A stretch of 64,000 nucleotides of DNA from Niveibacterium umoris (GTDB lineage Bacteria; Pseudomonadota; Gammaproteobacteria; Burkholderiales; Rhodocyclaceae), in NCBI RefSeq assembly GCF_014197015.1, contig NZ_JACIET010000002.1, forward strand, positions 1,054,001-1,118,000. Reading direction: 5' to 3'. Made by a program: the position numbers and the translations under genes. Shown piece by piece: positions 28,987 through 55,866 of this stretch. The notes under the pieces are model-generated. The model had not been told where the DNA came from. It saw nothing but the letters and a program-made list of their open reading frames with translations, and made no database searches. Within the stretch, counting starts at the first letter, position 1. Every line of letters starts with the position of its first letter.

Positions 28987-28988
28987 GG

Positions 28989-30688
<1,700 letters not shown>

Positions 30689-30689
<1 letters not shown>

Positions 30690-31521: not shown

Positions 31522-31524
31522 ACG

Positions 31525-31824
31525 CTAGCCGCCGCGGGCGCCGAATCTGTAGTTGCGCGATTCGACCGGTTTGGCTGCGGCGCTCGGTGTCGTGGCCGGC
31601 ATCGGTGCAGTCGCGACGGCGCGCGGCAGCAGCTGTTCGCGCAGCGTCAGCAGCATCACCAGCAAGTCTTCATCGTCGGCGAGATCCTCGATTTCGGCGA
31701 GCCGGGTGCGGGCGTATTCGGCGTCCTGCACCAGGCGGTCGAGGTCGACGCTCTGGTCGAGCTGGCGGCGGACCTGAAGCTTGAAACGGGCGAGCAGGCG
31801 GGCGTGTTCGATCTTGTCGTCCAT
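31525..31824 (-). CDS. Hypothetical protein within the urease operon
   Basis: 99 residues, not recognised. The first 70 residues look helical and amphipathic (KIEHARLLARFKLQVRRQLD, then AEIEDLADDEDLLVMLLTLR), and the tail is Ala/Pro/Thr-rich with a basic end. No signal peptide, no metal-binding motif. It lies 22 bases after ureA and three before the acetyltransferase gene, so it is co-transcribed with urease. A small assembly or regulatory partner is possible, but nothing shows it. Confidence 0.75.
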   Translation of the reverse strand: MDDKIEHARLLARFKLQVRRQLDQSVDLDRLVQDAEYARTRLAEIEDLADDEDLLVMLLTLREQLLPRAVATAPMPATTPSAAAKPVESRNYRFGARGG

Positions 31825-31846
31825 GGCGGGTCGTCGGTCTGCAGAG

Positions 31847-32149
31847 TCAGGGAATCGGGTGGTGCACGGTGACGAGCTTGGTGCCGTCGGGGAAGGTGGC
31901 TTCGACCTGGATCTCGGGGATCAGCTCGGGTACGCCGTCCATCACGTCGTCGCGGGCGAGCAGCGTGGTGCCGTAGCTCATCAGTTCGGCGACGGTGCGC
32001 CCGTCGCGCGCGCCTTCCATGATCGCGGCCGAGATGAAGGCGACCGCCTCCGGATAGTTGAGCTTGAGCCCGCGCGCACGGCGACGCTCGGCCAGCAGTG
32101 CAGCGGTGAAGATCAGCAGCTTGTCTTTTTCGCGGGGCGTCAGTTCCAT
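31847..32149 (-). CDS. ureA: Urease subunit gamma
   Basis: 100 residues, the standard length of the gamma chain. Conserved features are [40 protein letters not shown] and the C-terminal [13 protein letters not shown]. It follows ureD by 16 bases. Confidence 0.98.
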
Positions 32150-32165
32150 GGGGTTCTCGCGGAAA

Positions 32166-33074
32166 TCATGTGTTCCAGATGCGGGGCGGGCAGGCCGGGC
32201 GGTTCAGCAGTGCCGGCCGGACGATGGCCCAGAGGGCGGCGAACCAGTGGCGCGCGGCCTCGGCGTCGTCGCCGCGGTAGCGGGCCACCAGCAGGCCGGG
32301 CAGGCGGGTGACGGCGCCTAACCCGGCCGTGGGGCTTTCATTACGGCACGCTTCGACCAGCGTGGCGTCGATGTCGCGTGCAGCCACCAGCAGGCTGCCG
32401 AAGACGCTGGCGCCGCCGAGCACCGCACGCGAGCCAAGGCGTGGGTCGTCGCCGCGCAGCCGTGCCTGTTCGACAAAGACAGGGCGACCGTCACGTGCGA
32501 TGCGTATCGCGGTGTCCATGCGGCCGTGCGTGAAGCGTTCGCCGCGCGCGCGGCGGCCCAGGCACCACAGATCGAAGCCGATGAAGCACGCGTTACCGCT
32601 CAGTTGCACGTCCAGCGTTGCATTCCCGTCGGCGCCGTCGAAGACCATGCTTTCCTGTGGCAACCATTCGAGGCTGCCCGCGTCGGCGACGCTCAGCTGA
32701 ATCCTTTGCTCGGCCGGACGGCCGTCGGCGCGGTACCACTTGCCGGCGCCCGGAGTGGTCAGCAGCGCGTGGGCGCCTTCGCCCACCGACACGTCGATCG
32801 CCAGCGAGTCGCCGCCAGCAATGCCTGCCGGCGGATGCAGCAGGATCGCGTGGCTGACCGCGTCGCCTTCCGGATAGAGCGCCTTCTGCACCCGCAGTGG
32901 GCCGAGGTGTTCGCGGCGGATCAGGACGCTGCGCGCGTCGCGGCGTTCAAAACCCAGGGCGAGTCGGGCTCGCCACCCATGCGGGGATGCCGCGTGGCCG
33001 GCGCCGCCTGTGGCGACGTCCGGCACGCAGTCGATTTGGTCTGCTCTCTGCAAGGATTGGGTGTTCGCCCGCAT
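32166..33074 (-). CDS. ureD: Urease accessory protein UreD (UreH)
   Basis: 302 residues. Beta-rich scaffold that holds apo-urease and forms a nickel tunnel with UreF and UreG. Conserved segments are [45 protein letters not shown] and [11 protein letters not shown]. It is the first gene of the urease operon. ATG 33074 gives about 30 residues before the conserved core, so a later start is possible. No sigma-54 promoter is obvious upstream. Confidence 0.95.
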
Positions 33075-33233: not shown

Positions 33234-34064
33234 CTATTGCCGGATCTCGCCGAGGTTGCCCGGCCCGGGCAGGGCTTCGCTGGCGCGCCAGGGGTTGATA
33301 TCGAGGCCGCCGCGCCGGGTGTAGCGGGCCCACACTTCCAGCCGTTGCGGGTGGCACTGGCGGGTGACATCGACAAAGATGCGCTCCACGCATTGCTCGT
33401 GGAATTCGTTGTGGGTGCGGAAGGAGCAGATGTAGCGCAGCAGGCCGGCGCGGTCGATGGCCGGGCCGCTGTAGCGGATCACCACCATGCCCCAGTCGGG
33501 TTGCCCGGTGACGAGGCAGTTCGACTTGAGCAGGTGCGAGTACAGCGTTTCTTCGACCACCGGGCCGCCGGCCGTCAGCAACAGCGGTGCCGGTTCGTAG
33601 GTGTCGATATCGATGTCGAGCGTGTCGAGCAGCACGCCCTCGGGGTAGCCGAGCGGGCGCGCGGGGCGCTGGTCCAGCGTCTGGAGCGCCACGGTGACCG
33701 ATGCGCCTGCGGCCGCGGAAAGATCGCGGGCGATCGTCGCCTCGACTTCGGCGAGCGTTGCAAAGCGCGTCTGGTTGAAGCTGTTGAAGTACAACTTCAA
33801 TGATTTTGATTCGATCAGGTTCGGCGACGCCGCCGGTACCGTGAGCGTGCCGATCGCGACGACCGGCTTGCCGCGCGGGTTCAGCCACGACAACTCGTAG
33901 GCGTTCCACAAGTCGTGCCCGGTGAAGGGCAGGTCGGCACCGATGCCGATTTCGGCGCGCTTGCCGCTACGCGGAATCGGGAACAGAAGCTCTGGCGCAT
34001 AGCGGTCGCAATAGGCCACGGCCTTGCCGAGCGGCGAGGCTTCCGGGGCGTTGCTGGGGTTCAT
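33234..34064 (-). CDS. queF: NADPH-dependent 7-cyano-7-deazaguanine reductase QueF
   Basis: Reduces the nitrile of preQ0 to the amine preQ1 in queuosine synthesis. 276 residues: the long, two-domain form found in gamma- and betaproteobacteria. The substrate motif [17 protein letters not shown] lies near residue 86, the catalytic cysteine is in [15 protein letters not shown] near 187, and [12 protein letters not shown] follows. ATG 34064 begins the conserved start; a GTG at 34076 is an alternative. It lies between the urease and urt operons, and the 159-base gap to ureD holds nothing recognisable. Confidence 0.94.
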
Positions 34065-34209
34065 TTCGGTACTCACCGGCGCGATTTTACTGGATGACAC
34101 ACTTTTTATAACTGCGAGGCACGTCGTACCCCTGCACAAATCCAATGTGACGCCTATATTGCAGTTAGGCCGATGACTTCGTATCGGTCGGTTCAGCGAA
34201 GGAGGGTCA

Positions 34210-34891: not shown

Positions 34892-35584
34892 CTACACCGA
34901 CAGCCGCTCGCGCACGCCGTCCGCGTCCATGTTCTTGCCTTCACCGCGCATCACGATTTCGCCGCGTTCCATCACGATGTACTGGTCGGCCAGCGAGCGC
35001 GCGAAATCGTAGTACTGCTCGACCAGCAGGATCGCCATCTCGCCGGATTCGGCCAGGGCGCGGATGGCGCGTTCGATGTCCTTGATGATCGAGGGCTGGA
35101 TGCCTTCGGTCGGTTCGTCAAGGATCAGCAGCTTCGGCCCCGCGGCCAATGCTCGACCGATCGCGAGTTGCTGCTGCTGCCCACCTGAGAGGTCGCCGCC
35201 GCGGCGCTTCATCATCTGCCGCAGCACCGGGAACATCTCGAAGATGCGTTCAGGTACCTGCGCACTGGCGGGCTTCACTGCGAGGCCCATCTCCAGATTC
35301 TCGGCCACCGTCAGGCGCGGGAAGATCTCGCGGCCCTGTGGCACATAGCCGATACCGGCGCGCACCCGGGCGTGCGAGGGGCTGCGCGTCAGGTCGGCAT
35401 CCCAGAAGCGGACTGTGCCGGTCTTCGCGGGAACGAGGCCCATCAGTGTCTTCAACAGCGTGGTCTTGCCGACGCCATTACGGCCCAACAGGGTCGTGAC
35501 CTTGCCGGTCGGCACTTCGAAAGAGAGGTCGCGCAGGATGTGGCTGCCGCCGTAGTACTGGTTCAGGTTGGAGACGGTGAGCAT
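34892..35584 (-). CDS. urtE: Urea ABC transporter ATP-binding protein UrtE
   Basis: 230 residues, LivF-like ATPase of the urea importer. Walker A is LLGRNGVGKTTLLKTLMG near residue 35, the ABC signature is LSGGQQQQLAIGRAL near 135, and Walker B is LLILDEPTEGIQPS. The opening MLTVSNLNQYYGGSHIL is typical of UrtE. It is the last urt gene, separated from urtD by an unknown 150-residue gene. Confidence 0.96.
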   Translation of the reverse strand: MLTVSNLNQYYGGSHILRDLSFEVPTGKVTTLLGRNGVGKTTLLKTLMGLVPAKTGTVRFWDADLTRSPSHARVRAGIGYVPQGREIFPRLTVAENLEMGLAVKPASAQVPERIFEMFPVLRQMMKRRGGDLSGGQQQQLAIGRALAAGPKLLILDEPTEGIQPSIIKDIERAIRALAESGEMAILLVEQYYDFARSLADQYIVMERGEIVMRGEGKNMDADGVRERLSV

Positions 35585-36178: not shown

Positions 36179-37017
<839 letters not shown>

Positions 37018-37021
<4 letters not shown>

Positions 37022-38229
37022 GCGGATGCTCCTTCAGCGGCGGCAGCGTCGGGCGGGGTGCTGTGGGTGGAGGTGCTCGCGGGGGCGTGCGCAGCCTTCG
37101 CGACGGCCTTGGGTGCGGCGGGTGTCGTATCGCGTGTGTGGCGAACGCGCCGCCACAGACCAACCAGGCCTTCCGGCAGGTAGAGCGTGACGAGGATGAA
37201 CAGCAGCCCGAGGAAGAACAGCCAGTACTCGGGGAAGCTCACGGTGAACCAGCTCTTCGCGAGGCTCACCGTGAAGGCGCCGAGCACCGGGCCGATCAGC
37301 GTGCCGCGGCCACCGACCGCAGCCCAGATCGCAATCTCGATCGAGTTCGCCGGGCTCATCTCGCCCGGATTGATGATGCCTACCTGCGGCACGTACAGCG
37401 CACCGGCCAGCGCGCACAGCACGGCCGAGAGGGTCCAGATGAAGAGCTTGTAGTGCAGCGGGTTGTAGCCGATGAACATCACGCGCGACTCGGCATCGCG
37501 GATCGCGGCGAGCACGCGGCCGAACTTCGAGGTGACGAGGTAGCGGCCGAGCAGCAGCGTGCACATCAGCAGCAGCGCCGAGAGGCCGAACAGCACCAGC
37601 CGGGTTTCCGGCGCGGTGATCGAATAGCCGAGAATACGTTTGAAGTCGGTGAAGCCGTTGTTGCCACCGAAACCGGTTTCGTTGCGGAAGAACAGCAGCA
37701 TCGCGGCGTAGGTGAGCGCCTGCGTGATGATCGAGAAATACACGCCCTTGATGCGCGAGCGGAAGGCGAAGTAGCCGAACACCCACGCAATCGCGGCCGG
37801 CACCACAACCACCAGCACCAGCGCCCAGAGGAAGCTGTCGCTGCCGGTCCAGTACCAGGGCAGGGCTTTCCAGTCGAGGAACACCATGAAGTCCGGCAAG
37901 TCGGCGTGGTAACTGCCGTCGCGCCCGATCTGCCGCATCAGGTACATGCCGAAGGCGTAGCCGCCGAGCGCGAAGAAGAGCCCGTGGCCGAGCGACAGGA
38001 TGCCGGCGTAGCCCCAGATCAGGTCCATCGCCACTGCCACCACCGCGTAGCACAGCACCTTGCCGGTCAGCGTCACGAAGTAGTCCGACACATGCAGCGG
38101 GTGACCCTCGGGCAGCGCGAGGTGTGCGGCCGGCACCAGCACCCAGGCGACGAGGGCGAACAGCGCCAGTGCGATCCAGCCGCTGCGTGGCATGGCTGTG
38201 AGGAATCGAAGGGTCAGTGGCGTGCGCAT
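37018..38229 (-). CDS. urtC: Urea ABC transporter permease UrtC
   Basis: 403 residues, LivM-like permease with about ten helices. Characteristic segments are MDLIWGYAGILSLGHGLFFALGGYAFGMYLM near residues 65-95 and IWAAVGGRGTLIGPVLGAF near 310. The C-terminal tail is Ala/Thr/Pro-rich. ATG 38229 lies two bases after the urtB stop, which favours it over upstream starts that would run inside urtB. It overlaps urtD. Confidence 0.95.
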
Positions 38230-38231
38230 GA

Positions 38232-39833
38232 TCAGCTCTCGACGAAGCGGCCCTTGAGGGCAAACAGCCCCTGCGGACGCTTCTGGATGAACACAATGAT
38301 GAAGAGCAGCACGAGGATCTTCGCGATCACCGCGCCGGCCCAGCCTTCGAGGAACTTCGTGACGATGCCCAGCCCGAGCGCGGCCCACACCGCACCGGCG
38401 AGCTGGCCGACGCCGCCGAGCACGACGACGAGGAAGGAGTCGACGATGTAGCCCTGGCCCATGTCGGGCCCGACGTTGGCGATCTGCGACAGCGCGACGC
38501 CGCCGAGGCCGGCGATGCCGGAGCCAATCGCGAAAGCCAGTGTGTCGATGCGCCGTGTCGGCACGCCGACGCAGCCGGCCATCGGGCGGTTCTGCGTCAC
38601 GGCGCGCACGAACATGCCGAGCCGCGTCTTCTGCATCATCAGCCACACGATCAGCAGCACGAACAGCGCGAAGCCGATGATCGCGATGCGGTTGAGCGGC
38701 AGCATGGCGCCGGCATAGAGCTCGATGCCGCCACTCATCCAGTTGGGGTTGGCGACTTCCTGGTTCTGTGGCCCGAAGATCACGCGCGCGGCCTGGATCA
38801 GCACCAGCGACAGGCCCCAGGTGGCGAGCAGGGTTTCCAGCGGGCGGCCGTAGAGGTGGCGAATCACAAGCCGTTCCATCGCCACGCCGACCAGTGCGGC
38901 GACGACGAAGGCGAGCGGGATCGCCGCCAGCACGTAGGCATCAAGCCACTGCGGCGCATAGCTGCGGAACAGGCCTTGCACCACCCAGGTGGTGTAGGCG
39001 CCCACCATCAGCAGCTCGCCATGCGCCATGTTGATCACGCCCATCACGCCGTAGGTGATCGCGAGCCCCAGCGCGGCGAGCAGCAGGATCGAGCCGAGCG
39101 AGATGCCGGTGAAGATGCGGCCGAGGTTCTCACCGATCGCGATGCGGCGTTCGATCTGCGTCAGCGAGGCGACGGCGGCGATACGCACCGTTTCATCGGT
39201 TTCCTTGTAGCTGCCGCTGCTCTTGTCGAGCATGGCGGCGAGCAGTTGGCGCACGGCCGGGTCGGCACTGTCGGCGAGCGATTTGACCGCCTTCAGGCGC
39301 GCGCCGGCATCGTCGGCGCCGAGGTTGGCCTTGGCCTGTGCGAGCACCAGCAATTGTTTGATATGTGGGTCGGACTCCTTGGCCAGGGCTTTGTCGAGCA
39401 GCGGCAGGATCTCTGCACTGGCGTTGGCGCTCACGTCCTTTGCAGCGGTGAGGCGCACCTCGCGTTCGCTGGCGAACAGGCGCAGGCCGGCGAGCGCGGC
39501 GTCCAGCGTGCGACGCACGCGGTTGTTGATGCTGACCGCCTCGGCGTTCTCGGGTGCCGCGGTCAGCGCTTTGCCGGTCGCCACATCGATGTAGCTTTCA
39601 CCGTCGAGACGCACCAGCTTGTCACCGGCGACGAACAGGGCGTCTTCCGACAGCGCCTTGAAGATCGGCAGTACCGCTTCGGGGTCGCCGCTGGCGAGGG
39701 CCGCGATCGCGGCAATCTTCTCGTCAGAATCGTCTGCACCGAGGCGTGCGAGTTGGGCGGGGTCGAGCGCTGCGCAGGCCGGTGACCAGGCAAGGCGCGC
39801 GAGCAGCGCAAGCAGGAAAAGGAGTCTGACCAT
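38232..39833 (-). CDS. urtB: Urea ABC transporter permease UrtB
   Basis: 533 residues. A signal-like helix (LLFLLALLARLAW) and a soluble helical-repeat domain of about 210 residues precede a LivH-like permease domain (ITYGVMGVINMAHGELLMVGAY, and GSGIAGLGGVALSQ). The long N-terminal domain is typical of UrtB and distinguishes it from amino-acid LivH. ATG 39833 has GGAG about nine bases upstream. It lies 104 bases after urtA. Confidence 0.95.
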   Translation of the reverse strand: MVRLLFLLALLARLAWSPACAALDPAQLARLGADDSDEKIAAIAALASGDPEAVLPIFKALSEDALFVAGDKLVRLDGESYIDVATGKALTAAPENAEAVSINNRVRRTLDAALAGLRLFASEREVRLTAAKDVSANASAEILPLLDKALAKESDPHIKQLLVLAQAKANLGADDAGARLKAVKSLADSADPAVRQLLAAMLDKSSGSYKETDETVRIAAVASLTQIERRIAIGENLGRIFTGISLGSILLLAALGLAITYGVMGVINMAHGELLMVGAYTTWVVQGLFRSYAPQWLDAYVLAAIPLAFVVAALVGVAMERLVIRHLYGRPLETLLATWGLSLVLIQAARVIFGPQNQEVANPNWMSGGIELYAGAMLPLNRIAIIGFALFVLLIVWLMMQKTRLGMFVRAVTQNRPMAGCVGVPTRRIDTLAFAIGSGIAGLGGVALSQIANVGPDMGQGYIVDSFLVVVLGGVGQLAGAVWAALGLGIVTKFLEGWAGAVIAKILVLLFIIVFIQKRPQGLFALKGRFVES

Positions 39834-39937
39834 GGGGCGGCCGTTCCGTGTTCGTGGTGCCGGCCGGCACGCCGAGAGGCGAACCGGCCGGGAGGGCTGC
39901 ACCGCAGTGCGGTGCAGCGTTCAGGGATGGGCCGGGC

Positions 39938-41209
39938 TTACTGTGCGTCCGGCTCGTCCTTCTTCTTGTCGTTGCCGGGGATGTACGGGCTCCACGGCTG
40001 GGCCTTGATCGGGCCCTTGGTCTTCCACACCACGTTGAACTGGCCGTCGGCCTTCACTTCGCCGATGAACACCGGCTTGTGCAGGTGGTGGTTCTTCGGG
40101 TCCATCTCGACCTCGAAGCCCGACGGCGCCTTGAACTTCTGACCGCCCATCGCGGCGATGACCTTGTCGACGTCGGTGCTCTTGGCCTTTTCGACCGCCT
40201 GCTTCCACATGTAGATGCCGATGTAGGTGGCTTCCATCGGGTCGTTGGTCACGACCGTGTCGGCCTTCGGCAGGTTGTTCTTCTTCGCCCAGCCCTGGTA
40301 GGCCTTGATGAAGGCGGCGTTGGTCGGGTTCTTGATCGACTCGAAGTAGTTCCACGCGGCCAGATGGCCGACCAGCGGCTTGGTGTCGACGCCACGCAGT
40401 TCCTCTTCACCCACCGAGAAGGCCACGACCGGCACATCGGTCGCCTTCAGGCCGGCATTGCCGAGTTCCTTGTAGAAAGGCACGTTGGAGTCGCCGTTGA
40501 TCGTCGACACCACCGCGGTCTTCTTGCCCTCGGAGGCGAACTTCTTGATCTTGGCGATGATGGTCTGGTAGTCGGAGTGCCCGAAGGGGGTGTACTCCTC
40601 CATGATGTCCGCATCGGCGACGCCCTTGCTCTTGAGGAAGGCGCGCAGGATCTTGTTGGTGGTGCGCGGGTACACATAGTCGGTACCCAGCAGCACGAAG
40701 CGCTTGGCCTCGCCGCCGTCCTTGCTCATCAGGTATTCCACCGCCGGGATCGCCTGCTGGTTGGGCGCGGCGCCGGTGTAGAACACGTTCTTCTCAAGTT
40801 CTTCACCCTCGTACTGCACCGGGTAGAACAGCAGGCCGTTGAGTTCCTTGTAGACCGGCAGTACCGACTTGCGCGACACCGAGGTCCAGCAACCGAAGGT
40901 CACCGCGACCTTGTCCTTCGACAGCAGTTGGCGCGCCTTTTCGGCGAACAGCGGCCAGTTCGAGGCCGGGTCGACCACCACCGGCTCGAGCTTCTTGCCC
41001 AGCACGCCGCCCTTGGCGTTGATCTCTTCGATCGCCATCAGCGCGGTTTCCTTCAGCGCCGTTTCCGAGATGGCCATCGTGCCGGACAGCGAGTGCAGGA
41101 TGCCGACCTTGATGGTGTCGGCGGCTTGCGCGGCCAGCGAAGTGAATCCGCACACGGCGAGCGCGGCGGACATTGCAGTCATTTTCACGAAATTGCGACG
41201 GGTGCTCAT
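39938..41209 (-). CDS. urtA: Urea ABC transporter substrate-binding protein UrtA
   Basis: 423 residues. The N-terminus has a twin-arginine-like signal (STRRNFVKMTAMSAALAV), so export in folded form is possible. The mature Venus-flytrap protein opens with IKVGILHSLSGTMAISET, and FGCWTSVSRKSVLPV and GTDYVYPRTTN are typical of urea binders. It is the first gene of the urt operon. The 203 bases upstream, shared with the divergent diguanylate cyclase gene, contain no convincing sigma-54 site. Confidence 0.96.
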   Translation of the reverse strand: MSTRRNFVKMTAMSAALAVCGFTSLAAQAADTIKVGILHSLSGTMAISETALKETALMAIEEINAKGGVLGKKLEPVVVDPASNWPLFAEKARQLLSKDKVAVTFGCWTSVSRKSVLPVYKELNGLLFYPVQYEGEELEKNVFYTGAAPNQQAIPAVEYLMSKDGGEAKRFVLLGTDYVYPRTTNKILRAFLKSKGVADADIMEEYTPFGHSDYQTIIAKIKKFASEGKKTAVVSTINGDSNVPFYKELGNAGLKATDVPVVAFSVGEEELRGVDTKPLVGHLAAWNYFESIKNPTNAAFIKAYQGWAKKNNLPKADTVVTNDPMEATYIGIYMWKQAVEKAKSTDVDKVIAAMGGQKFKAPSGFEVEMDPKNHHLHKPVFIGEVKADGQFNVVWKTKGPIKAQPWSPYIPGNDKKKDEPDAQ

Positions 41210-41412
41210 GGACGCTCTTCCTCGAATCAGTTGGGGTCACGGGGTCAGTGGGATGCTGCGGTGCCACATTAGGGCCGGCGCCCCGATCGAGGAATACGTC
41301 AGATTGCGTAGGTGCCCGAGAGGCCTTTCGCTGCAAAGCATGCGGTCAGCGAGGTGCTCAAGGAAGCGGGCCTTCGCGTCGTTATGTGAGGGATACAAAT
41401 ACGAACGAACCC

Positions 41413-42816
41413 ATGAGCGAGCGCTTTCCGGACGCCTTCCTCGCCGACAAATATGCACAGTTCCGCAGCCTGGCATTCCACGCCGCGCTGTTTACGCCCG
41501 CGCTCACTGCGGCGATGTGGAGCTGGGAATGGGGCGTCGACCCGGCGCATGCGATGGATACCCTGGGGCTGCGGATCGCCATGGTCTTGCTGAGCCTGGT
41601 GGTGCCGCTGAGCGTGAAGCTCTATGAGCGCAGCGATGTCGGGGCTTGGCTTGCCGCGCTCTGCACGGTGCTGATCGAAATCCTGCTCAGCGTGGTGCAC
41701 GACAGGATTGCGAACGGTGCGCTGCTGGGGATGCCGGGCTTCATGTTCTTCTACTTGCTGGCCCCGGTTGTGAGTTTCGTCTTCCCGCTGCGGGTCAACG
41801 TCACCCTCAACGTAGTGCTGCCTGTGGCGCCACTCGCGCTGCATGCTGTCAGCGGCGTGCCGGTGGGGTTTCATGTTGTGGCCTATTCGAGTGCGGCCTT
41901 CCCGGCGGCGGCCTTCGTGATCACCGGCCATTTCCTTGCAGAGCGTGCGCTCCGCCAGTTCTTTGAAGCACGTCGCCTGGCTGCGTGGCGCAGCGCAGCG
42001 ATCGACAAGGTCGCAGTTCCGGTGTTCGTGGCGAACTCGGAAGGTCTTGTCGAGTACGCCAACGCCGCCATGATGGGTCTGCTCGAACCATCACGGAACG
42101 TGGTGATCGGCACCCCGCTCGATCAGCTGCTCGACATGTCCGGGGCGCAAGCCGGGTTGAAGAACGTCGAGGCACGGGTGCGCAACAGCACGCGCAATAC
42201 CTGGCTCCTGTTGTCCGGCACAGCGGTGGGGCGTGCCGGGCGTGCGCCATCGATCGTGTACGTGGCGCAGGACGTTTCTGCCGCGCGCGCGGAATCGGAT
42301 GCCTTGCGCGATGCGGCCTTGACCGACACCGTCACCGGCCTTGCAAACCGGCGTGCCTACGATCAACAGCTTGCGCGGCGTCATGCGCAAGGCGGCACGC
42401 TGGCGGTGCTGTTCGTCGATCTGGATGGCTTCAAGGCGGTCAATGACAGTTTCGGGCATGACACCGGAGACGCCTTGCTGAAGGTGATCGCGCAGCGCCT
42501 GAACCGGGCATTGCGTCAGGGGGATCTGGTGGCGCGACTGGGCGGGGACGAGTTTGCGCTGATTGCCAGCATCGCGGACGGTACCGATGAAGCCCGTGCG
42601 CTGGCCGAGCGGCTACTTCGCACCATCTCGGAGCCGGTGCATCTGACCACTGAAACGGTCAAGGTAGGCGCCAGTGTGGGGGTGGCCCTGTCGTCGACGA
42701 TTCAAACCGACGCGCACGGGCTGGTGCGCGCTGCCGACGCCGCCATGTACCGTGCAAAAGCTTCGGGAAAAGGGCGCGTGGTGATCGCCGAAGCGGCCGA
42801 TTACGAGGCGCGGTAG
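41413..42816 (+). CDS. Membrane diguanylate cyclase with PAS domain
   Basis: 467 residues. Five to six N-terminal membrane helices (residues about 30-180), a PAS-like module (IDKVAVPVFVANSEGLVEYA), and a GGDEF domain (TDTVTGLANRRAYDQQL, then RLGGDEFALI near 378). The intact GGDEF motif and metal-binding aspartates (FVDLDGFKAVND) predict synthesis of cyclic di-GMP. No RxxD inhibitory site stands out. It is divergent from urtA; the sensed signal is unknown. Confidence 0.92.
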   Translation: MSERFPDAFLADKYAQFRSLAFHAALFTPALTAAMWSWEWGVDPAHAMDTLGLRIAMVLLSLVVPLSVKLYERSDVGAWLAALCTVLIEILLSVVHDRIANGALLGMPGFMFFYLLAPVVSFVFPLRVNVTLNVVLPVAPLALHAVSGVPVGFHVVAYSSAAFPAAAFVITGHFLAERALRQFFEARRLAAWRSAAIDKVAVPVFVANSEGLVEYANAAMMGLLEPSRNVVIGTPLDQLLDMSGAQAGLKNVEARVRNSTRNTWLLLSGTAVGRAGRAPSIVYVAQDVSAARAESDALRDAALTDTVTGLANRRAYDQQLARRHAQGGTLAVLFVDLDGFKAVNDSFGHDTGDALLKVIAQRLNRALRQGDLVARLGGDEFALIASIADGTDEARALAERLLRTISEPVHLTTETVKVGASVGVALSSTIQTDAHGLVRAADAAMYRAKASGKGRVVIAEAADYEAR

Positions 42817-45727: not shown

Positions 45728-46660
45728 TCAGGCGCCGGCCGTATCGGGGCGCGCCCGCATGCGGCCCATCGCCATGTTGGCGGCCGCAGTGCGGGTTTCG
45801 ACACCGAGCTTTTCGAAGATGTGTTCGAGATGCTTGTTCACGGTGCGCGGGCTGCTGCCAAGGATGGTGCCGATGTCGGGGCTGGTCTTCCCCTGCGTGA
45901 CCCAGTAGAGCACTTCGGCTTCGCGGGTGGTCAGGCGGAAGGCCGCCATCAGGGATTCGATCGCGGAGCCGTCGTTCTCTTCGCGAAGCACGACCAGCCA
46001 TTCGTCGTCGCCCGTCTGGTCGTGAAACGTGGACATCAGGCGCCGGCTGCCCTGCGCGACCAGCAGCGTCGGGTGTTCTCGCCCTTCCCGGCGCGCCGCG
46101 TCGGCGGCGGCAATCCATTCGAGCAGGCGTGGCGGGGTTGCATCTCGCTCGGTGCCGAAATAGGCGTTGAGCAACTGACGCGCCAGTGGCGTCTGCCAGA
46201 CCAGCTTGCCGTCGCTCGCGCGCACCGCCACGGTGGCCTGGCCGAAGGCATCGAGTGCGCTGCGTGCCTGCCGCATCTGGCGGGCGTTCTGCAGGTGGGC
46301 GGCGATGCGCGCCAGCACTTCCTGCGGGCGGATCGGCTTGGTCACATAGTCGGCGCCGCCGGCGGCAAAGGCCGCGACGACATGTTCGGTCTCGGTAAGC
46401 CCGGTCATGAAGACGATCGGAATCGCCTGCGTCGCGAAGTCGGCTTTGAGCCGGCGCGCGGTTTCGAAGCCGTCGATGCCGGGCATCATCGCGTCGAGCA
46501 GGATCACGTCCGGCGCGCTCTGGCGCGCGCGCAGCAGCGCATCCTGCCCGTTGGTGGCGACCAGCACGGTGTAGCCGGACTCGTCGAGCGCGTCATGCAG
46601 CAGCGACAGGTTTTCCGGGATGTCGTCGACGATCAGCACGACGCCGGCGCGTTCAGGCAT
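45728..46660 (-). CDS. LuxR-type response regulator
   Basis: 310 residues. The receiver domain has VLIVDDIPENLSLLHDAL, phospho-Asp in VILLDAMMPGIDGFE near residue 53, and Lys in DYVTKPI. A PAS-like middle region (about 135-235) is followed by a LuxR helix-turn-helix: RLTTREAEVLYWVTQGKT and SSPRTVNKHLEHIFEKLGV. It should bind DNA when phosphorylated. ATG 46660 is eight bases inside the upstream kinase gene; a GTG at 46666 is an alternative. The overlap makes the NCS1-type kinase its probable partner. Confidence 0.92.
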   Translation of the reverse strand: MPERAGVVLIVDDIPENLSLLHDALDESGYTVLVATNGQDALLRARQSAPDVILLDAMMPGIDGFETARRLKADFATQAIPIVFMTGLTETEHVVAAFAAGGADYVTKPIRPQEVLARIAAHLQNARQMRQARSALDAFGQATVAVRASDGKLVWQTPLARQLLNAYFGTERDATPPRLLEWIAAADAARREGREHPTLLVAQGSRRLMSTFHDQTGDDEWLVVLREENDGSAIESLMAAFRLTTREAEVLYWVTQGKTSPDIGTILGSSPRTVNKHLEHIFEKLGVETRTAAANMAMGRMRARPDTAGA

Positions 46661-49600
46661 CGGCACGGACAGTCTCCCTGTTTGCGGTTTGCAGGCCCTT
46701 GCGGATGATGGCCTGCATCGGTTCGAACTGGAACTGGCGCGCGAGGCCCCGCATCACGCGCACGAACTCGGCGTAAGCCGGGTCGGCGTGCTCGATGCCG
46801 GCCAGCGTATCAAGCACACCGCGCGGGTAACCCAGCGAGACGGCGCTCTCCAGGGCTCGCAGCGCCGCTTCCGGCGGATAGCTGAGCGGGGCGCCAGCGT
46901 TGGGGACGGATTCAGGGGCTGATTCCTTGCGCGGCGCGCTGACCCATTCGAGTTGCAGGCGGTGGCCGATCCAGTCGAGCAGATCTTCCACCCGCAGCGG
47001 CTTGACGAGGAAGTCCTCGGGCGGCAGCGCGATGTCGTTGTCGAGCCCGCGGTCGAAGGCGTTGGCGGAAAGTACAGCGAGTTGCGCGTCGCAGCCCTGC
47101 GCGCGCAGGCGGCGCAGGGTTTCCCAGCCGTCGATGCCAGGCATCGCAAGGTCCATGAACACCAGATGCGGCTTGAATAGCGGTGCACGTTCCAGGCACT
47201 CATAGCCGTTCGCGGCATCTGCGACCTCGAAACCGAGCGGCGCAAGCAGACTGACCAGCAACTCGCGATCCACCCGTTCGTTATCCACCACCAGGATCCG
47301 CCGCCGCACGCCAACGTAGCCGATGCGTACCGTGTCGGCCCGCAGTCGCGCGGCCTGCATGCCATGGACCTGCGGCAGGAAGAGCCGCACAAGGAAGCTG
47401 CTGCCGGCGCCGGGCGTGCTGGTCACCGACATTTCGCCGCCCATCAGGTCGGTCAGCATGCGGGTGATCGTCAGGCCGAGCCCGGTGCCGCCGGCGCCAC
47501 CCTGGCTCGCCGCGCTGCCGCGTGCGAAGGGCTCGAAGATGTGCTCGATCTCATCGGGGGCGATACCGGGGCCGCTGTCGATGATCTCGCACAGCGCCAT
47601 CTCGCGCTGGTAGCGCAGGCGGAAACGCACCTCGCCGCGCTGCGTGAACTTCACCGCGTTGCCGAGCAGGTTGATCAGGATCTGGCGCAGCCGCTTCTCA
47701 TCCGCCCGCACCACCGGCGGCAACTCGCCGAGTTGTTCGAAGTGGAAGGCGAGGCCCTTGTTGCGCGCCTGCAGTTCGAACATACCGACGATCTGCGCGA
47801 TGAAATCCGGGAAGTCGAGCGGGCGGATGTCGAGCGTGAGCTTGCCGCCTTCGATGCGCGCGAGATCCAGCGTGCCTTCGATCAGCGAGAGCAGGTGGTC
47901 GCCGCTGCGCCGGATCACTGATACCGCCTGGCGCCGGTGCGCCGGAATCGATTCGTCGCCGTCAAGGATCTGCGCGTAGCCGAGAATGCTGTTGAGCGGT
48001 GTGCGCAACTCGTGGCTGATCGCGGTGATATGGCGGCTCTTCGCCTGGTTCGCCTGTTCGGCGACCTGCCGCGCCTTCTGCAGTTGTTCGTCGGTGCGGC
48101 GGTGCGAGGCAATCTCCTGCATCAGCGCGGCGGTCTGGCGGTTGGATTCTTCCTGCGCGACCTGCCGGCTCTTGTGCGTCAGCACCATCCACCAGGCCAC
48201 CACGCCGCTCACCAGCAGCAGCGCCGAGAAGGCCTTGATGAAGCTCTGCTGCAGATGCGGCAGCAGCGCGGCATGCTGACTGCCGACGACCACCCACTCG
48301 TGGTAGTACAGCAGGCCCATCAGCAGCGCGAGGAAGGGCACGATGCCGGCCATCAGCAGCAGGTAATGGCCCAGCCCGGTCTCGACATAGGGCAGCACCG
48401 CGCGCGGCAACACGCGCTGCAACAGCCCGTTCCACTGCGACGAAAGTCGCGCCTGCGGCTTGCACAGGTCGTTGCAGCGCGCATCGAGCGAGCAGCATAG
48501 CGAGCAGATCGGCCCCTGGTAGGCGGGGCAGTGGGCGGTGTCGTCCGACTCGTATTCGCGGTCGCAGATGCAGCAGCGATGCGCGCCGGTGCTGCGCACT
48601 TCGGCCTTGCGTGCGAGGTAGTACTTGCCGCCGGTTGCCCACGCGATCAGCGGCGAACAGACCAGTGCGGCGCCGATCGCCAGGAAGGAGGCGAATGGCT
48701 GCAGGGCGGCGCCGAGCAGGCCGACCCAGGCTGATATCGAGAGCGCAGAGGCGATCGCCATCGTGCCGACACCGACCGGGTTGATGTCGTACAGATGGCT
48801 GCGCTTGAATTCGATGCTCTTGGGCGACAAGCCGAGCGGCTTGTTGATCACCAGATCCGCGACGACGGCCATCATCCAGCTGATAGCGATGTTGGAATAC
48901 AGCCCCAGCACCTGCCCGAGCGCTTGAAATACGTTCAGCTCCATCAGCATCAGTGCGATCAGCGTGTTGAACACCATCCACACCACGCGGCCGGGGTGGC
49001 TGTGCGTCAGCCGCGCGAAGAAGTTGGACCACGCCAGCGAGCCGGCGTAGGCGTTGGTGACGTTGATCTTGAGCTGCGAGATCACCACGAAGATCACCGT
49101 TGCCCATAGTGCCCAGCCCGGTGCGGCGAACACATGCGAGAAGCCGATCAGGTACATCTGGTTCGGGTCGACCGCCTTGTCCGCCGGCACCGCATTGCGC
49201 AGCGCGAGCCACGCGAGCAGCGCGCCGCCCAGCATCTTCGCCACGCCCAGCACCACCCAGCCGGGGCCGCCGACGATCACGCCGGCGAACCAGCGCCTGC
49301 GGTTGGCTGCGGTGCGCTCCGGCATGAAGCGCAGGTAGTCCGCCTGCTCGCCCATCTGCGTAATCAACGCGATGCCCACGGTGAGCGCGGCGCCGAACAG
49401 CGGCACGCTGAAGCTGCCGCCTGCGCCATTCGCACCCGCATAGCTCGCGAGGCCGGCGAGTACCGTCGGCTCCTGCCACAGCACGAAGACAAAGGGCAGC
49501 GCCAGCATCAGCAGCCATAGCGGCTGGGTCAGGGTTTGCAGGCGGCTGATGGTGGTGACGCCATGCGTGACGAGCGGAATCACGACCAGCGCACAGAGCA

Positions 49601-50084
49601 CATAGCCCCACGCTGGCGGGATGCCGAAGGCCATCTCCAGCGCGTAGGCCATGATCGCCGCTTCGAGCGCGAAGAAGATGAAGGTGAATGAGGCGTAGAT
49701 CAGCGAGGTGATGGTCGAGCCGATGTAGCCGAAGCCTGCACCACGCGTGAGCAGATCCATGTCCAGCCCATAGCGGGCCGCGTAGAAACTGATCGGCAAG
49801 CCGGCGAGGAAGATGATCAGCCCGGTCGCGATGATCGCGAACAGTGCATTGATGAAGCCCGCCTGCACCAACATGGTGGCGCCGACTGCTTCAAGCACCA
49901 GAAAGGACGCCACGCCGAAGGCGGTGTTCGCGACCCGCAGCTCGCTCCAGCGGCGGAAGCTGCGCGGCGTGAAACGCAACGCGTAGTCCTCCATCGTCTC
50001 GCGCGCGACCCAGCTGTTGTAGTCGCGACGGATCTTGATGACGCGCTGGACGGGCGCTGCGGAGGTATCGAGTGTGGGCGGCAT
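46653..50084 (-). CDS. Hybrid histidine kinase with NCS1 permease-like sensor region
   Basis: 1143 residues. Residues about 20-480 form a 12-helix region resembling NCS1 purine/cytosine permeases (DYNSWVARETMEDYALR, then VANTAFGVASFLVLEAVGA). A Cys-rich segment follows (nine Cys between 504 and 541: CCICD, CSLCC, CNDLC), then two more helices, a coiled coil, HisKA with HELRTPLNSILGY near 691, an ATPase domain (NLLGNAVKF, GTGLGLTI), a receiver (ILVVDNERVD, FMDLAMPGIDG, LVKPLRV) and a helical tail of about 100 residues. By analogy with CbrA-type transporter kinases, substrate binding or passage may set kinase activity. The substrate is unknown; purines, hydantoin or allantoin are typical NCS1 cargo. 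It overlaps the LuxR regulator gene. Confidence 0.85.
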   Translation of the reverse strand: MPPTLDTSAAPVQRVIKIRRDYNSWVARETMEDYALRFTPRSFRRWSELRVANTAFGVASFLVLEAVGATMLVQAGFINALFAIIATGLIIFLAGLPISFYAARYGLDMDLLTRGAGFGYIGSTITSLIYASFTFIFFALEAAIMAYALEMAFGIPPAWGYVLCALVVIPLVTHGVTTISRLQTLTQPLWLLMLALPFVFVLWQEPTVLAGLASYAGANGAGGSFSVPLFGAALTVGIALITQMGEQADYLRFMPERTAANRRRWFAGVIVGGPGWVVLGVAKMLGGALLAWLALRNAVPADKAVDPNQMYLIGFSHVFAAPGWALWATVIFVVISQLKINVTNAYAGSLAWSNFFARLTHSHPGRVVWMVFNTLIALMLMELNVFQALGQVLGLYSNIAISWMMAVVADLVINKPLGLSPKSIEFKRSHLYDINPVGVGTMAIASALSISAWVGLLGAALQPFASFLAIGAALVCSPLIAWATGGKYYLARKAEVRSTGAHRCCICDREYESDDTAHCPAYQGPICSLCCSLDARCNDLCKPQARLSSQWNGLLQRVLPRAVLPYVETGLGHYLLLMAGIVPFLALLMGLLYYHEWVVVGSQHAALLPHLQQSFIKAFSALLLVSGVVAWWMVLTHKSRQVAQEESNRQTAALMQEIASHRRTDEQLQKARQVAEQANQAKSRHITAISHELRTPLNSILGYAQILDGDESIPAHRRQAVSVIRRSGDHLLSLIEGTLDLARIEGGKLTLDIRPLDFPDFIAQIVGMFELQARNKGLAFHFEQLGELPPVVRADEKRLRQILINLLGNAVKFTQRGEVRFRLRYQREMALCEIIDSGPGIAPDEIEHIFEPFARGSAASQGGAGGTGLGLTITRMLTDLMGGEMSVTSTPGAGSSFLVRLFLPQVHGMQAARLRADTVRIGYVGVRRRILVVDNERVDRELLVSLLAPLGFEVADAANGYECLERAPLFKPHLVFMDLAMPGIDGWETLRRLRAQGCDAQLAVLSANAFDRGLDNDIALPPEDFLVKPLRVEDLLDWIGHRLQLEWVSAPRKESAPESVPNAGAPLSYPPEAALRALESAVSLGYPRGVLDTLAGIEHADPAYAEFVRVMRGLARQFQFEPMQAIIRKGLQTANRETVRADA

Positions 50085-50267
50085 GGCCTGTCTGGCCTAG
50101 CAAGCCGCGCGCCGGGTCCGAAACCGGGCCAGTCGGGGGCGCTAACGGCCCGTGTGACACCGCAACGTTACCGTCACAAAAACGCAATCAGACGCACATG
50201 AAAATGTGACGAGCTGGCGACTTGACTGCGCTGAAGTAGTGGTCACGGCAAGGCGTGAGGAGGCGGC

Positions 50268-51923
50268 ATGAATGCATTGGGGCGCAAGCCGGGGCTTGCA
50301 GGGGATATCCAGATCAGGCGGGCCTTGTTGCTACTCACCGTGGTGTCGGTGGTGGGCATGCTTGCCAGCGTGGTGATCCTCTATGTCGCGCTGAACCGGG
50401 TTGGCGGCTCGGTGGACTCGGTGGTGCGCACGCGCAACTTCGAAGCCAGCGTGGTGCCACCGGCGCTCTATCCGCTCGAGGCAATCAACGCCACCTTCGC
50501 GCTGGTCGAATCGTCCGGCGACGTCGCGCCGCTGGTCGCGCGCTACAAGGCGAGTCGTGGTCGCTTTGATCAGGCGGTGCAGCAATGGTCGCGCGATCCG
50601 ATACTGGCTGACCCGAAAATCGCCGAGTTGTTCAAGCAGCAGCAAGCGCTGTCGGAAGCAGTCTTCACCAAGGTCGAGAAGGAAATCATCCCGGCTGTCG
50701 AGAAGGGGCAGAACGAGGCCGCGCAGTTCATGCTGCCGGTGCTGCAACTTACGCTCGGCCGCCTCTCTGCCAACGCCGACGCCCTCAACAAGGCGGCGGG
50801 TGAAGCGGCGACGCGAGAACAGCAGGTATTCGCGAAGACCATCCGGGTCTACGAAATTGCCGGCGCACTGTTCCTCATCGTTCTCGCCGGCGGCATCGGC
50901 GTCTTCGCATGGCGCACTTCGCGACAACTGTTCGCTGCGGTCGGCGGCGAGCCGGCGGCGTTGGCCAAGGTCGCCCAGGACATCGCCGATGGCGACCTGC
51001 GCATGAGTTTCAGTGTCGACGCGCGCTATTCCACGAGTCTCGGGGCTTCGTTCGCACGCATGTTCGAAGGGCTCAAGGAACGTGTCGGCCGCTGGCAGAC
51101 GCTCGATCAGCGCCTTGATGGCGTGTTCGACTCGGTGCGCGAGCTGTCACGATCTTCGCAAGCGCGCGCGATGGTGCAGCAGGGGCGTGTGCAGCACGCA
51201 CAGTGCGAACTCGACGCGATCCGCGCCCGTGTGGCGGACGTGGTGTCGCGCACCCGCGAATCGGCCGCCGTGGTCGAGAATGCCTTGAACTCGGTCGACG
51301 GTGCGACCGCGTCAGCGCTGTCCACCCTCGGCCACCTCGAATCGCTGTCCGGCGCGATGCGTGAGGTCACCGATGTGCTCGGATTCCTCGACGCCAACAT
51401 CGGCCAGGTGGTCAGGACCACCGACCTGATCGACCAGGTCGCGCAGCAGACGCGCCTGCTCTCGCTCAATGCCGCCATTGAAGCAGCGCGGGCCGGCGAA
51501 CACGGGCGCGGCTTCGCGGTGGTCGCAGACGAGGTGCGCAAGCTCTCGGAGCAGAGCCAGCGCGCAGCATCGGAAATCGAGAAGGTCAGCCATGACCTGC
51601 TGGGCAGCCTCAACGCGCTTTCAAGCCGCGCCAACGAGAGCCTCGGTGCCGCCGAACAGGCGATCACCGGCGCCACGCAGATCCGCACCGCCAGCGACGA
51701 ACTGGCGCAGAGCTCACGGCACGGGCGCGAGCTGCTGCAGCAACTGGTCACCGACTCCGAAGCGCAGACCCAATCGCTCGACGAGGTCGCGAACGGCGTG
51801 CTGGCCCTGCAGCAGGAATACGCCAAATCAGGCGAAGAAGTCACGCAGTTGACCGAGCGCCTGTTCGAAGTCGACGCCTACCTCAAGGAACTGTCGGCCA
51901 GCCTCGAGGCCTACAAGCTCTGA
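50268..51923 (+). CDS. Methyl-accepting chemotaxis-type protein
   Basis: 551 residues. N-terminal helix ([21 protein letters not shown]), a periplasmic helical domain of about 160 residues, a second helix ([18 protein letters not shown]) and a cytoplasmic signalling coil. The conserved hairpin is [20 protein letters not shown] followed by [14 protein letters not shown]. No CheR/CheB-binding pentapeptide is seen at the end. It has a strong GAGGAGG site. Adjacent chemotaxis genes are absent; the signal is unknown. Confidence 0.92.
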
Positions 51924-53671: not shown

Positions 53672-54913
53672 CTAGGGGGCCGGCGGTTTGGCGGCCGGAT
53701 ACAGCTGCTCGATTACCGCCTTCGCAATCGTCGTGGCCGGATCCTTCCCGGTCATCGACGGGGCGAGGTTGGTCCATACGATCAGCGTGACCTTGTTCTG
53801 CGGGTCGTGCCCCATGAAGCTGTTGTAGCCCGGCAGCTCGCCGGTGTGGCCGTAGAGTGGGCCGAACCTGGCGATGGCCTGCCCGTACTGTGCACCCCCC
53901 TGGATCGGGCGCACGCTGTCGAGGCGTGCCTTCTGCATCGCCGGCGGCAGGAGCTTGCCTTCGACCAGCGCGCGCACCCAGACCAGCAAATCGTCGGCGG
54001 TGGAAATGCCGGCGCCGGCTGCCCATCCCCAGGAGGGATTCACCGTTGTCTGCTCAGTGGGCAGCAGGGCGCCGCGCCGCGCGTTGTCCTGCGCGTCCTG
54101 AGGCAGCGCCTGATGCGGCGGCATCGTGGACACGTTGTCGCCGTACATGTAGCCACGCGCATACGGCGTTGGCAGCGTGTTGTCACGGGTGTCGGGGAAC
54201 AGCGTGTCTTTCAGGCCGAGTGGCTTGAAGAGCCGGTCCTGCAGGATTTGCGAGAGCGGTTTGCCGTGTTCCAGCTTCTCGGCGAGCAGGCCGAGCAGCA
54301 CGGTGTTCGTGTTCGAGTAGTGGAAGTCGGTGTCGGGCTCGAAATAGGTGTTTGGCTTGTGTCTGAACGCGATCGCGAGCAACTCGTCGGGCTTCCATGA
54401 CTTGCCCGGTTCGCGATCCAGTGTTTCGTTGAGTTCGAGCGTCTCGGAATAGTTGAACAAGCCGCTGCGCATGTTCAGCAGATGCTCGATCTTGATCCGC
54501 TCGCCGTTCGGCACGTCGGGAAGATACTTGGCTATCGGATCGTCGAGCCGCAACAGCCCTTCGCTCGCCTGCTGCAGGATCACCGTGCCCACCCAGGTCT
54601 TGGTGTTCGAACCGACGCGGATGTGCTGGCTGGTCGTCACCCGCTCCATGCCACCGAGTGCGCTGGTGCCATAGCGGTAGTCGAAGTTGCCTCTTGGCGT
54701 ACGCAGCAATACGACGACGCCCGGCACGAGCATCTCTTTGGCCAGCGCCTGCACGGTGCGCTGGAAAGCCACCGTATCGATCCTCTTCAGGGCTGTCTGC
54801 GCAGACGCGCCGGCGGGCAGCGCCAGCCCGCAGCCGAACGCGGCAACCAGCGCGCAAGCACGCGCCAAGCTTCGGGTAAAGGTGTGCGAACAGGCGATCA
54901 GCGCATGCGGCAT
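53672..54913 (-). CDS. Serine hydrolase, class C beta-lactamase / DD-peptidase fold
   Basis: 413 residues with a signal peptide ending in PAGASA, so periplasmic. The three catalytic motifs of the fold are present: SxxK as GSNTKTWVG near residue 106, YxN as HYSNTNTV near 210, and HxG as GHTGELPGY near 365. Relatives are D-Ala-D-Ala carboxypeptidases, esterases and beta-lactamases, and motifs alone cannot decide between them. ATG 54913 has AAGGAA seven bases upstream. It is divergent from the ECF sigma gene. Confidence 0.9.
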   Translation of the reverse strand: MPHALIACSHTFTRSLARACALVAAFGCGLALPAGASAQTALKRIDTVAFQRTVQALAKEMLVPGVVVLLRTPRGNFDYRYGTSALGGMERVTTSQHIRVGSNTKTWVGTVILQQASEGLLRLDDPIAKYLPDVPNGERIKIEHLLNMRSGLFNYSETLELNETLDREPGKSWKPDELLAIAFRHKPNTYFEPDTDFHYSNTNTVLLGLLAEKLEHGKPLSQILQDRLFKPLGLKDTLFPDTRDNTLPTPYARGYMYGDNVSTMPPHQALPQDAQDNARRGALLPTEQTTVNPSWGWAAGAGISTADDLLVWVRALVEGKLLPPAMQKARLDSVRPIQGGAQYGQAIARFGPLYGHTGELPGYNSFMGHDPQNKVTLIVWTNLAPSMTGKDPATTIAKAVIEQLYPAAKPPAP

Positions 54914-55278
54914 CTCGGTTCCTTTGCGGAAAGATAGTGCGGCCTTCGGCGTGACGGGGCGATACGTATCCCATTCTGCCAGCGGAGTGCCGTGCCGGGC
55001 GACATCTGACTGCGGGGGAGTGAGCAACAGGGGCCGTCGAGCACGCTCGCCGCGATGGCGGTCGTGTCGTCGACCGGATGCTTGGGTTGCAGGCGCGTCC
55101 AGAGCCTGCCTGCAAGGCCGATTGCGCACCCGACATCTCAAGTCGCAATGCGCGGCAGGTGGATCAAACGCATTACCCGCACCGATATGTGCCGCGACGA
55201 TTAGACTCTTGCACCAATGGCGGCGCCGGTTGCGGCACGCTCTTTTGACCAGGCCGATCGGCACCAAGGGAGATCGCG
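54914..55278. other. 365-base intergenic region, no gene seen
   Basis: Separates the serine hydrolase gene from the divergent ECF sigma gene, so it should hold both promoters. No convincing -35/-10 pair or palindrome was found by eye. AAGGGAG at 55267 is the ribosome-binding site of the sigma gene. Confidence 0.5.
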
Positions 55279-55866
55279 ATGATGGACGGCAATGGTATGT
55301 CGTTCGACCTGCTGGAGGCACTGCGCCCGGACCTGGTGCGATTCGCGCGCCTGCATGTGCGCGACCGGGCGCTCGCCGAAGACGCGGTTCAGGATGCCCT
55401 CCTTGCCGCGATGCAGGCGTGGAAATCGTTCGAGAACCGATCGAGCGTCAAGACCTGGGTATTCACGATCTTGCGCAACAAGATCATCGACCTGGTTCGA
55501 AAGCGCGAACGCGAACCCTCGCTCAGCGAGATCTCAAGCGGGGATGAGCAAGACGCGCAACTGATGGACGCCCTGTTCGATCAGCACGGGCATTGGGAGT
55601 CGGCCGCCACGCCGGGCCGCTGGCGCGATCCGGAAGACGCCTTCGAACAAGCGCAGTTCTGGACCGTGTTCGAAGCCTGCCTCGATCGCCTGCCGGAGCG
55701 CACCGCGCGCGTCTTCTCGATGCGGGAACTGCTGGATTTCGAGACCGATGAAATCTGTAAGGAAACCGGCATCAGTTCGACTAACTGCTTTGTGGTCTTG
55801 CACCGTGCACGGCTCGCCCTGCGCGCCTGTCTTGAGACCCAGTGGTATCACGGCACACCCAACTGA
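55279..55866 (+). CDS. ECF-family RNA polymerase sigma factor
   Basis: 195 residues. Region 2 reads DLVRFARLHVRDRALAEDAVQDALLAA, with AWKSFENRSSVKTWVFTILRNKIID; region 4 has LPERTARVFSMRELLDFETDEI and SSTNCFVVLHRARLAL. A 50-residue acidic linker joins them. The downstream gene encodes a zinc-finger protein of the anti-sigma type nine bases later, the usual pairing. ATG 55279 follows AAGGGAG; a second in-frame ATG is adjacent. The regulon is unknown; the divergent serine hydrolase is a candidate. Confidence 0.93.
   Translation: MMDGNGMSFDLLEALRPDLVRFARLHVRDRALAEDAVQDALLAAMQAWKSFENRSSVKTWVFTILRNKIIDLVRKREREPSLSEISSGDEQDAQLMDALFDQHGHWESAATPGRWRDPEDAFEQAQFWTVFEACLDRLPERTARVFSMRELLDFETDEICKETGISSTNCFVVLHRARLALRACLETQWYHGTPN

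Follow-up and report, generated by a model that had tools for sequence, protein, structure and literature searches.

Kinases of the CbrA, CrbS and RpuS type (SLC5-STAC kinases) carry a LeuT-fold transporter domain fused to a histidine kinase, CrbS being a hybrid kinase (excerpts of PMC5715377 and PMC9100948). The best-studied transporter-type kinase is CbrA, which both binds and transports histidine and has been called a rare example of its kind (excerpts of PMC13022988), and the Amt-type ammonium sensor kinase Ks-Amt5 likewise uses the fold of a nitrogen-nutrient transporter as a kinase sensor (excerpt of PMC12918730). Here, we analyzed a stretch of 64,000 nucleotides of Niveibacterium umoris (contig NZ_JACIET010000002.1, positions 1,054,001 to 1,118,000; hereafter the window), whose 4.8-Mb source genome is coded G000 below, and focused on a histidine kinase gene (P0001) located near genes for urea import. 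The kinase is probably a transporter-type histidine kinase of an NCS1 variety that is apparently undescribed. We propose, with a probability of roughly 0.7, that the kinase senses urea (in its relatives, also formamide or other short amides) as part of a two-component system, which then switches on the uptake and breakdown of the compound.

The window kinase differs from the CbrA type in that its transporter is of the NCS1 type (there is no SSF Pfam match, and SLC5 structures rank below NCS1 structures), an eight-cysteine module and a two-helix hairpin lie between transporter and kinase, and the partner genes of its family are urea and amide genes. The window kinase has no Pfam match named STAC, the library's possession of a STAC model being unchecked. 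Mhp1 (hydantoin) and CodB (cytosine) provide the best fold matches and are related to the sensor domain at the sequence-profile level, whereas the window domain is only 15-18% identical to them in the top fold alignments, is fused to a kinase and is undetected by PF02133. Compared with Ks-Amt5, both transporter family and ligand are unrelated. Clusters of urtABCDE with formamidase (UTS, Klebsiella CG307) have been described for Klebsiella (PMC13060141) and a Pseudomonas chromosome (PMC13209695), and the terms "histidine kinase", "two-component" and "response regulator" are absent from the main text of both papers; on one Klebsiella plasmid, the kinase and its regulator stand directly divergent from such a cluster. 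GrtK, which has a PilS-like six-helix domain, as well as EmbRS, AccS and the S-component kinases, were compared with excerpts of their published accounts and set aside. Among the matches listed in open-access full text, with subscription papers mostly outside that scope, neither an NCS1-type kinase nor a urt-linked system of this kind is described, which is not proof of novelty.

The kinase gene occupies 46653-50084 on the minus strand (1143 aa, ATG start, from the open reading frame list and Pfam), exactly the interval of the original prediction, a reading of the bare letters that had given no strand. Pfam places a HisKA domain at residues 681-747 (47844-48044, minus strand), a HATPase_c domain at 795-903 (47376-47702) and a receiver (REC) domain, which that prediction did not mention, at 930-1037 (46974-47297). 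The protein is a hybrid kinase with the phospho-acceptor histidine and the receiver aspartate in place: in an alignment of 135 sequences (the window kinase plus sets of 80 and 54 relatives), His691 is kept in all 135 and Asp978 in 133, the other two being gaps. The partner response regulator, with REC and LuxR/GerE helix-turn-helix domains found by Pfam, is encoded at 45728-46666 on the same strand and, as had been noted, overlaps the 3' end of the kinase gene (by 14 bp from a GTG start, or by 8 bp from an ATG two codons later). In 124 of 134 related loci, a regulator homolog on the same strand comes immediately after the kinase. Among the matches listed, the nearest kinases belong to Niveibacterium and Uliginosibacterium records. 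The source genome holds a second family copy, 53% identical over residues 8-1098 and adjoining urt2 and formamidase genes.

The N-terminal domain (residues ~25-486; 48627-50012, minus strand) almost certainly has the NCS1 transporter (LeuT-type) fold, as judged from structure prediction, profile comparison, NCBIfam matches in relatives and conservation. An AlphaFold2 model of residues 13-700 reached a mean predicted local distance difference test (pLDDT) of 74.1 and a predicted TM-score of 0.69, and the five best Foldseek matches in the PDB were all Mhp1 and CodB structures (E 2.5e-8 for Mhp1 and 5.7e-8 for CodB; TM-score on the target 0.67-0.73), with other LeuT folds ranking lower. When 31 diverse sensor sequences were compared by hhalign with five standalone permeases, each of which matches PF02133, the two profiles aligned over 377 columns with a probability of 98.3 and an E-value of 1.2e-14. 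More weakly, the NCBIfam cytosine permease model matched 16 of the 31 relatives at E ≤0.1 (best 5.7e-8), the window's own sequence being unmatched. One standalone relative (L121), itself matching PF02133 (3.6e-9) and TIGR00800 (2.5e-16), shows 30% identity over 489 columns. Direct searches speak against the NCS1 assignment: PF02133 had no match in the window's pre-kinase region searched alone, it matched none of 31 family sequences including the window's (best E only 0.076), and profile searches of PDB sequences failed to detect the sensor domain. We take the missing PF02133 match as a sensitivity limit of one model and not as a defining trait. The domain search that had been suggested for this region thus gave no direct PF02133 match and did give a profile-profile relation to permeases of the PF02133 type. 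A non-transporter family at the N-terminus was also looked for and none emerged, Pfam being silent there; Foldseek, hhalign and NCBIfam all favour NCS1, and such a family is rejected.

The source genome yielded no PF02133 permease, such a protein being present in 4 of 41 genomes searched; the NCS1 fold thus seems to survive there in the two sensors alone. A standalone permease of the same subfamily, with no kinase, occurs on the Streptomyces chartreusis plasmid NZ_CP108841.1 (L183, 9863-11584, plus strand); it is 43% identical to kinase residues 28-554 and ends in a shortened cysteine motif with five of the eight positions. A permease of this kind is a possible ancestor of the sensor.

Within the sensor domain, the polar residues E65, E141, E246, Q247, Q337, K339, N341 and N344 are invariant in 135/135 sequences, Q337, K339, N341 and N344 being supplied by helix 8. 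The profile alignment sets the NCS1 helix-3 motif WYGIQ opposite the family's invariant FFALE, and E141 falls at what we take, from its position in Mhp1, to be the place of the substrate-side glutamine of NCS1 permeases. By analogy, K339 may be a candidate counterpart of the lysine held in the Na2 site of CbrA (excerpt of PMC13022988). When sensors were compared, the beta clade and the formamidase type differed at seven fixed positions, and at no position did all urea-type groups avoid the formamidase-type residue.

Between the permease and the kinase lies a cysteine segment, C-x2-C-x11-C-x7-C-x2-CC-x5-C-x3-C (residues 504-541; 48462-48575, minus strand). The original prediction had described nine cysteines; nine are indeed present in the window protein (504, 505, 507, 519, 527, 530, 531, 537 and 541), and conservation of nine is rejected, since eight of them, with their spacing, are unchanged in 135/135 sequences and position 505 is cysteine in 36/135. 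The suggestion of a metal-site-like segment is supported by these eight. The segment lies after the last permease helix; two further hydrophobic helices (residues ~567-639; 48168-48386, minus strand; from hydropathy and model helices) and a long helix into the kinase come next. Given a cytoplasmic kinase and an even number of helices after it, the segment would be cytoplasmic. A search with the segment alone through 299 genomes gave E <1e-10 matches only in frames of at least 894 aa at known sites of family kinases, and five weaker matches look like chance, so that the idea of a domain recurring in other proteins was dropped. Pfam found no family common to most members (best shared, 10/65). 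A separate model of the segment reached a pLDDT of 78.2. Its fold matches were weak and fell mostly to zinc fingers of the RING, PHD and FYVE types (50 of the 252 listed), with no match significant (best E 0.15). The module is probably a two-zinc finger, possibly of the PHD/RING/FYVE cross-brace kind, and zinc is its likely metal. A B-box-like arrangement of the cysteines was also considered, and we make no claim for it. The module could instead be a second sensor (of redox state, an Fe-S cluster or metal supply, such as nickel for urease) and not a structural relay. Urease needs nickel, the eight invariant cysteines include a CC pair, and such a role would be compatible with urea sensing by the permease domain; we consider it unlikely, considering the zinc-finger character of the fold matches, weak as they are, and the retention of all eight cysteines in formamidase-linked copies.

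To place the family, we used the best 80 of at least 583 relatives found in species genomes and an even phylum draw of 398 genomes (the source genome included), from which 54 kinase loci were taken as a set; three drawn loci (G043, G224 and G387) lie outside it, and a hand count of the whole draw gives 58 family kinase loci in 52 of the 398 genomes, window included. Loci were searched with UrtA-E, UreA-G and FmdA proteins. Genes for urea import (urt), urease (ure) or formamidase (fmdA) stand near the kinase in 98/134 loci, or 77 of the 94 with adequate flanks (≥7 kb before and ≥6 kb after the kinase); by set, the proportions are 53/54 for the phylum draw and 45/80 for the best-similarity loci. 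The kinase start lies directly opposite urtA (39) or ureA (42) in 81 of the 134 loci, and formamidase is present in 37. Individual records show the linkage as well: the kinase accompanies urtABCDE on S. meliloti pSymB, urease on a Mitsuaria plasmid, and urtABCDE with formamidase on a Chelatococcus plasmid and a Klebsiella plasmid. On a rapidly built tree, several of whose branches are long, 5 changes account for the formamidase label, compared with 32.6 for shuffled labels.

Two shorter kinases of 885-894 aa, without a receiver domain or matched response regulator (L127, 7499-10156, and L128, 7663-10347, both minus strand), have formamidase downstream and form the first branch of the midpoint-rooted tree. 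Of 533 plasmid records matching the sensor domain, 342 come from Klebsiella, with 52% identity among the matches listed. On the Klebsiella pneumoniae plasmid NZ_CP104767.1 (L182), the kinase, followed by its regulator, faces urtABCDE and formamidase across a gap that contains a 23.4-bit palindrome (see below).

The original prediction held plausible a role of the kinase in sensing purine or ureide breakdown products and controlling nitrogen genes. The nitrogen link is strengthened by conserved linkage and a shared urtA palindrome; a purine or ureide ligand is less likely, the recurrent nameable neighbours being urea import, urease and formamidase genes, which favour urea and short amides over purines, hydantoin or allantoin. 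Hydantoin, allantoin and uracil do carry ureido or amide groups, and hydantoin and cytosine permeases share the fold of the sensor, so that the domain might sense one of these or another purine-breakdown product, urea use being the last step of the pathway. This is improbable: of 10 representatives scanned from a minority of the neighbour clusters, the five with a Pfam match are all of urt, ure or fmdA kinds and none is a purine, hydantoin or allantoin gene, and linkage to formamidase does not fit a purine signal. Other transporter-type sensors respond to other nutrients, and the identity of the ligand here is itself deduced; the domain might accordingly be a mere scaffold or respond to ammonium, nitrogen status or membrane potential, by which urea use would be tuned. 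We regard this as quite unlikely, because polar positions in the core helices do not vary, as they would not if a ligand site had been retained, and because close relatives pair with two different amide pathways. A urea or short-amide ligand is fairly likely. As a whole, the predicted feature is real and specific and its structural claim is right; in its interpretation, the NCS1 sensor and the nitrogen link hold and the ligand shifts to urea and short amides.

The divergent kinase-urtA spacers of relatives yielded a palindrome, ATACGYMA-NN-TKRCGTAT. Inverted repeats are often bound by LuxR-type regulators. The core of the palindrome, TACG-N8-CGTA, occurs in 28 of 39 kinase-urtA spacers (32 sites in 15,442 bases), whereas 200 shuffles gave 0.07 sites on average and never more than 2. 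A 22-bp matrix was built from the 32 sites, which are mostly of the formamidase type, with the window excluded from training. Scanning the 64 kb of the window, it found the predicted operator GAATACGTCAGATTGCGTAGGT at 41292-41313, ~83 bp upstream of urtA, with 25.8 bits (24.4 bits under the flatter background of later scoring); the next best site had 7.5 bits, and five shuffles gave at most 10.8. Thus, although urtA does not adjoin the kinase in the window, the palindrome stands at urtA. In the source genome, the bare core pattern occurs at 11 places, versus 128 for a reversed control pattern. In the similarity set, 14 of 15 urtA-holding loci have a site of at least 11 bits 99-219 bp upstream of the urtA match, and by hand count 15 of the 34 such sites in 1.6 Mb lie at urtA (the window's among them) and 10 between ureA and the kinase, the remaining 9 being at other places. 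The palindrome recurs in kinase-urtA spacers of distant classes, and scores 25.0 bits in S. meliloti, 23.4 on the Klebsiella plasmid and 17.8 at the source genome's own paralog locus (urt2 and formamidase).

As a control, we scored 70 promoters of canonical urtA. The site is present in 8/8 genomes with a urea-type kinase (13.8-29.3 bits), in 0/21 with only a formamidase-type kinase (maximum 4.3 bits) and in 0/41 without a family kinase (maximum 3.7 bits), a split that used neighbourhood labels but was applied after the scores had been seen. G111, whose contig ends upstream of the kinase, was put among the 21 by its tree neighbours; G387, read after the test as a urt and formamidase locus, fits. 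None of 200 permuted palindromic matrices matched the eight, their matches in the other 62 averaging 0.27. Adjacency does not explain the site, since in four genomes (G389, G225, G019 and G379) the urea-type kinase and the site-bearing urtA are ~40, 59, 100 and 244 kb apart. Urea-type genomes with urtA near the kinase were scored apart from the 70 (L136 is in the training set): G158 19.7, G043 26.1, L132 21.3, L133 26.1, L134 27.0, L136 27.3, L138 10.5, L139 18.6 and L140 12.5 bits, the site being nearer the kinase than urtA in L139 and L140. In L020, L129, L131 and L164, nothing exceeded 7.7 bits in stretches that exclude urtA; the genomes of L129 and L131 (G158 and G142) carry the site at urtA. 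The palindrome might belong to another regulator of urtA and accompany the kinase through shared descent, seven of the eight urea-type-kinase genomes being from the window's own order. We give this little probability, since within that order the site is found in 7/7 genomes with a urea-type kinase versus 0/8 without, being absent from kinase-less G231, G338, G322, G324 and G328 and from formamidase-type-only G170, G249 and G255, and since the same palindrome stands in kinase-urtA spacers of distant classes, in S. meliloti and on the Klebsiella plasmid.

Several results weigh against a urea-responsive system acting at this palindrome, including the late application of the control split. When any family kinase is counted, only 8/29 genomes have the site at canonical urtA, compared with 0/41 kinase-less ones. 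Eleven of the 39 urtA spacers are without an exact core, as are all 42 ureA spacers; by the matrix, 17 of these 42 reach 7 bits and 25 stay below. Operator words sought in urease-type spacers were uninformative, the spacers being largely contaminated by ureA and kinase coding sequence. L057 has urtA and no site, and in the urea-type locus L164, whose urtA lies outside the stretch, scores across 19 kb do not exceed 6.9 bits. As for linkage, 17 of the 94 adequately flanked loci, mostly from Rhodocyclales such as Zoogloea, have no urt, ure or fmdA gene nearby, and many relatives come from related lineages, so that the counts are not independent. On sequence grounds, the conserved linkage and the shared urtA palindrome support a regulator of urea import, and it is very likely that the partner regulator acts at urtA.

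The order of the domains, the NCS1 fold, the invariance of the cysteines, the gene linkage, and the palindrome with its occurrence alongside the urea-type kinase are computational observations; from them we infer the ligand, the metal, the signal path, DNA binding and the direction of regulation, as follows. Urea would bind in the NCS1 core, at the site where NCS1 permeases hold substrates bearing ureido or amide groups. The opening and closing of this core would be passed through the cytoplasmic eight-cysteine module and the two-helix membrane hairpin to the kinase, whose His691 would donate phosphate to the LuxR-type regulator, perhaps with Asp978 in the receiver domain as an intermediate. 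The phosphorylated regulator may then bind the palindrome upstream of urtA and activate the urt-urease block. Beyond the site, the urt and urease genes share a strand (41209 to ~25394), so that one operator could drive both import and breakdown. It is an even bet that the family represents a widespread and hitherto undescribed transceptor class in which an NCS1 permease was turned into a dedicated urea or short-amide receptor, coupled to its kinase through a two-zinc finger instead of STAC. If so, it would sense external urea directly and have a conserved operator; it would apparently have changed several times between the urea and formamide pathways, and it is carried by Klebsiella plasmids too. 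Its presence in the evenly drawn genomes counted above offers a candidate dedicated urea sensor and a candidate operator for many bacteria, and the urea-linked and formamidase-linked paralogs of the source genome form a natural test of how a transporter fold becomes a receptor.

All five urt genes of the window lie on the minus strand and score as UrtA-E above NCBIfam cut-offs: urtA, the substrate-binding protein of the urea ATP-binding cassette transporter (39938-41209; TIGR03407, 594.5 bits, cut-off 492.75), urtB (longest frame, 38232-39902; TIGR03409), urtC (longest frame, 37018-38646; TIGR03408), urtD (36179-37021; TIGR03411) and urtE (34892-35584; TIGR03410). The listed urtC start overlaps urtB, and thus the true start is probably later. 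The reported distance of about 5 kb between kinase and importer agrees with the 5.4 kb separating the urtA start (41209) from the kinase 3' end. The urease block (25394-33074) runs in the same direction as urt; UreD (32166-33074), UreA (31847-32149), UreC (28989-30689) and a UreG-like protein (25394-26086), all on the minus strand, were tested, and the rest were assigned by position. A gene for QueF of the queuosine pathway (33234-34145) sits between urtE and ureD, inside this otherwise urea-specific block. The urtA palindrome falls within the spacer shared with a divergent gene for a MASE8-GGDEF diguanylate cyclase (spacer and gene together, 41210-42816), and this gene might therefore also answer to urea.

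A chemoreceptor gene (50268-51923) is divergent from the kinase, and the intervening spacer (50085-50267) contains a weak palindrome-like site at 50178, the window's second-best operator-like match (7.5 bits), which is not above chance. Farther along the window, 53672-55321 encodes a beta-lactamase-fold (PF00144) protein with an N-terminal extension. It scores far below the NCBIfam class C cut-offs in the rows shown and is thus probably a peptidase- or esterase-like relative.

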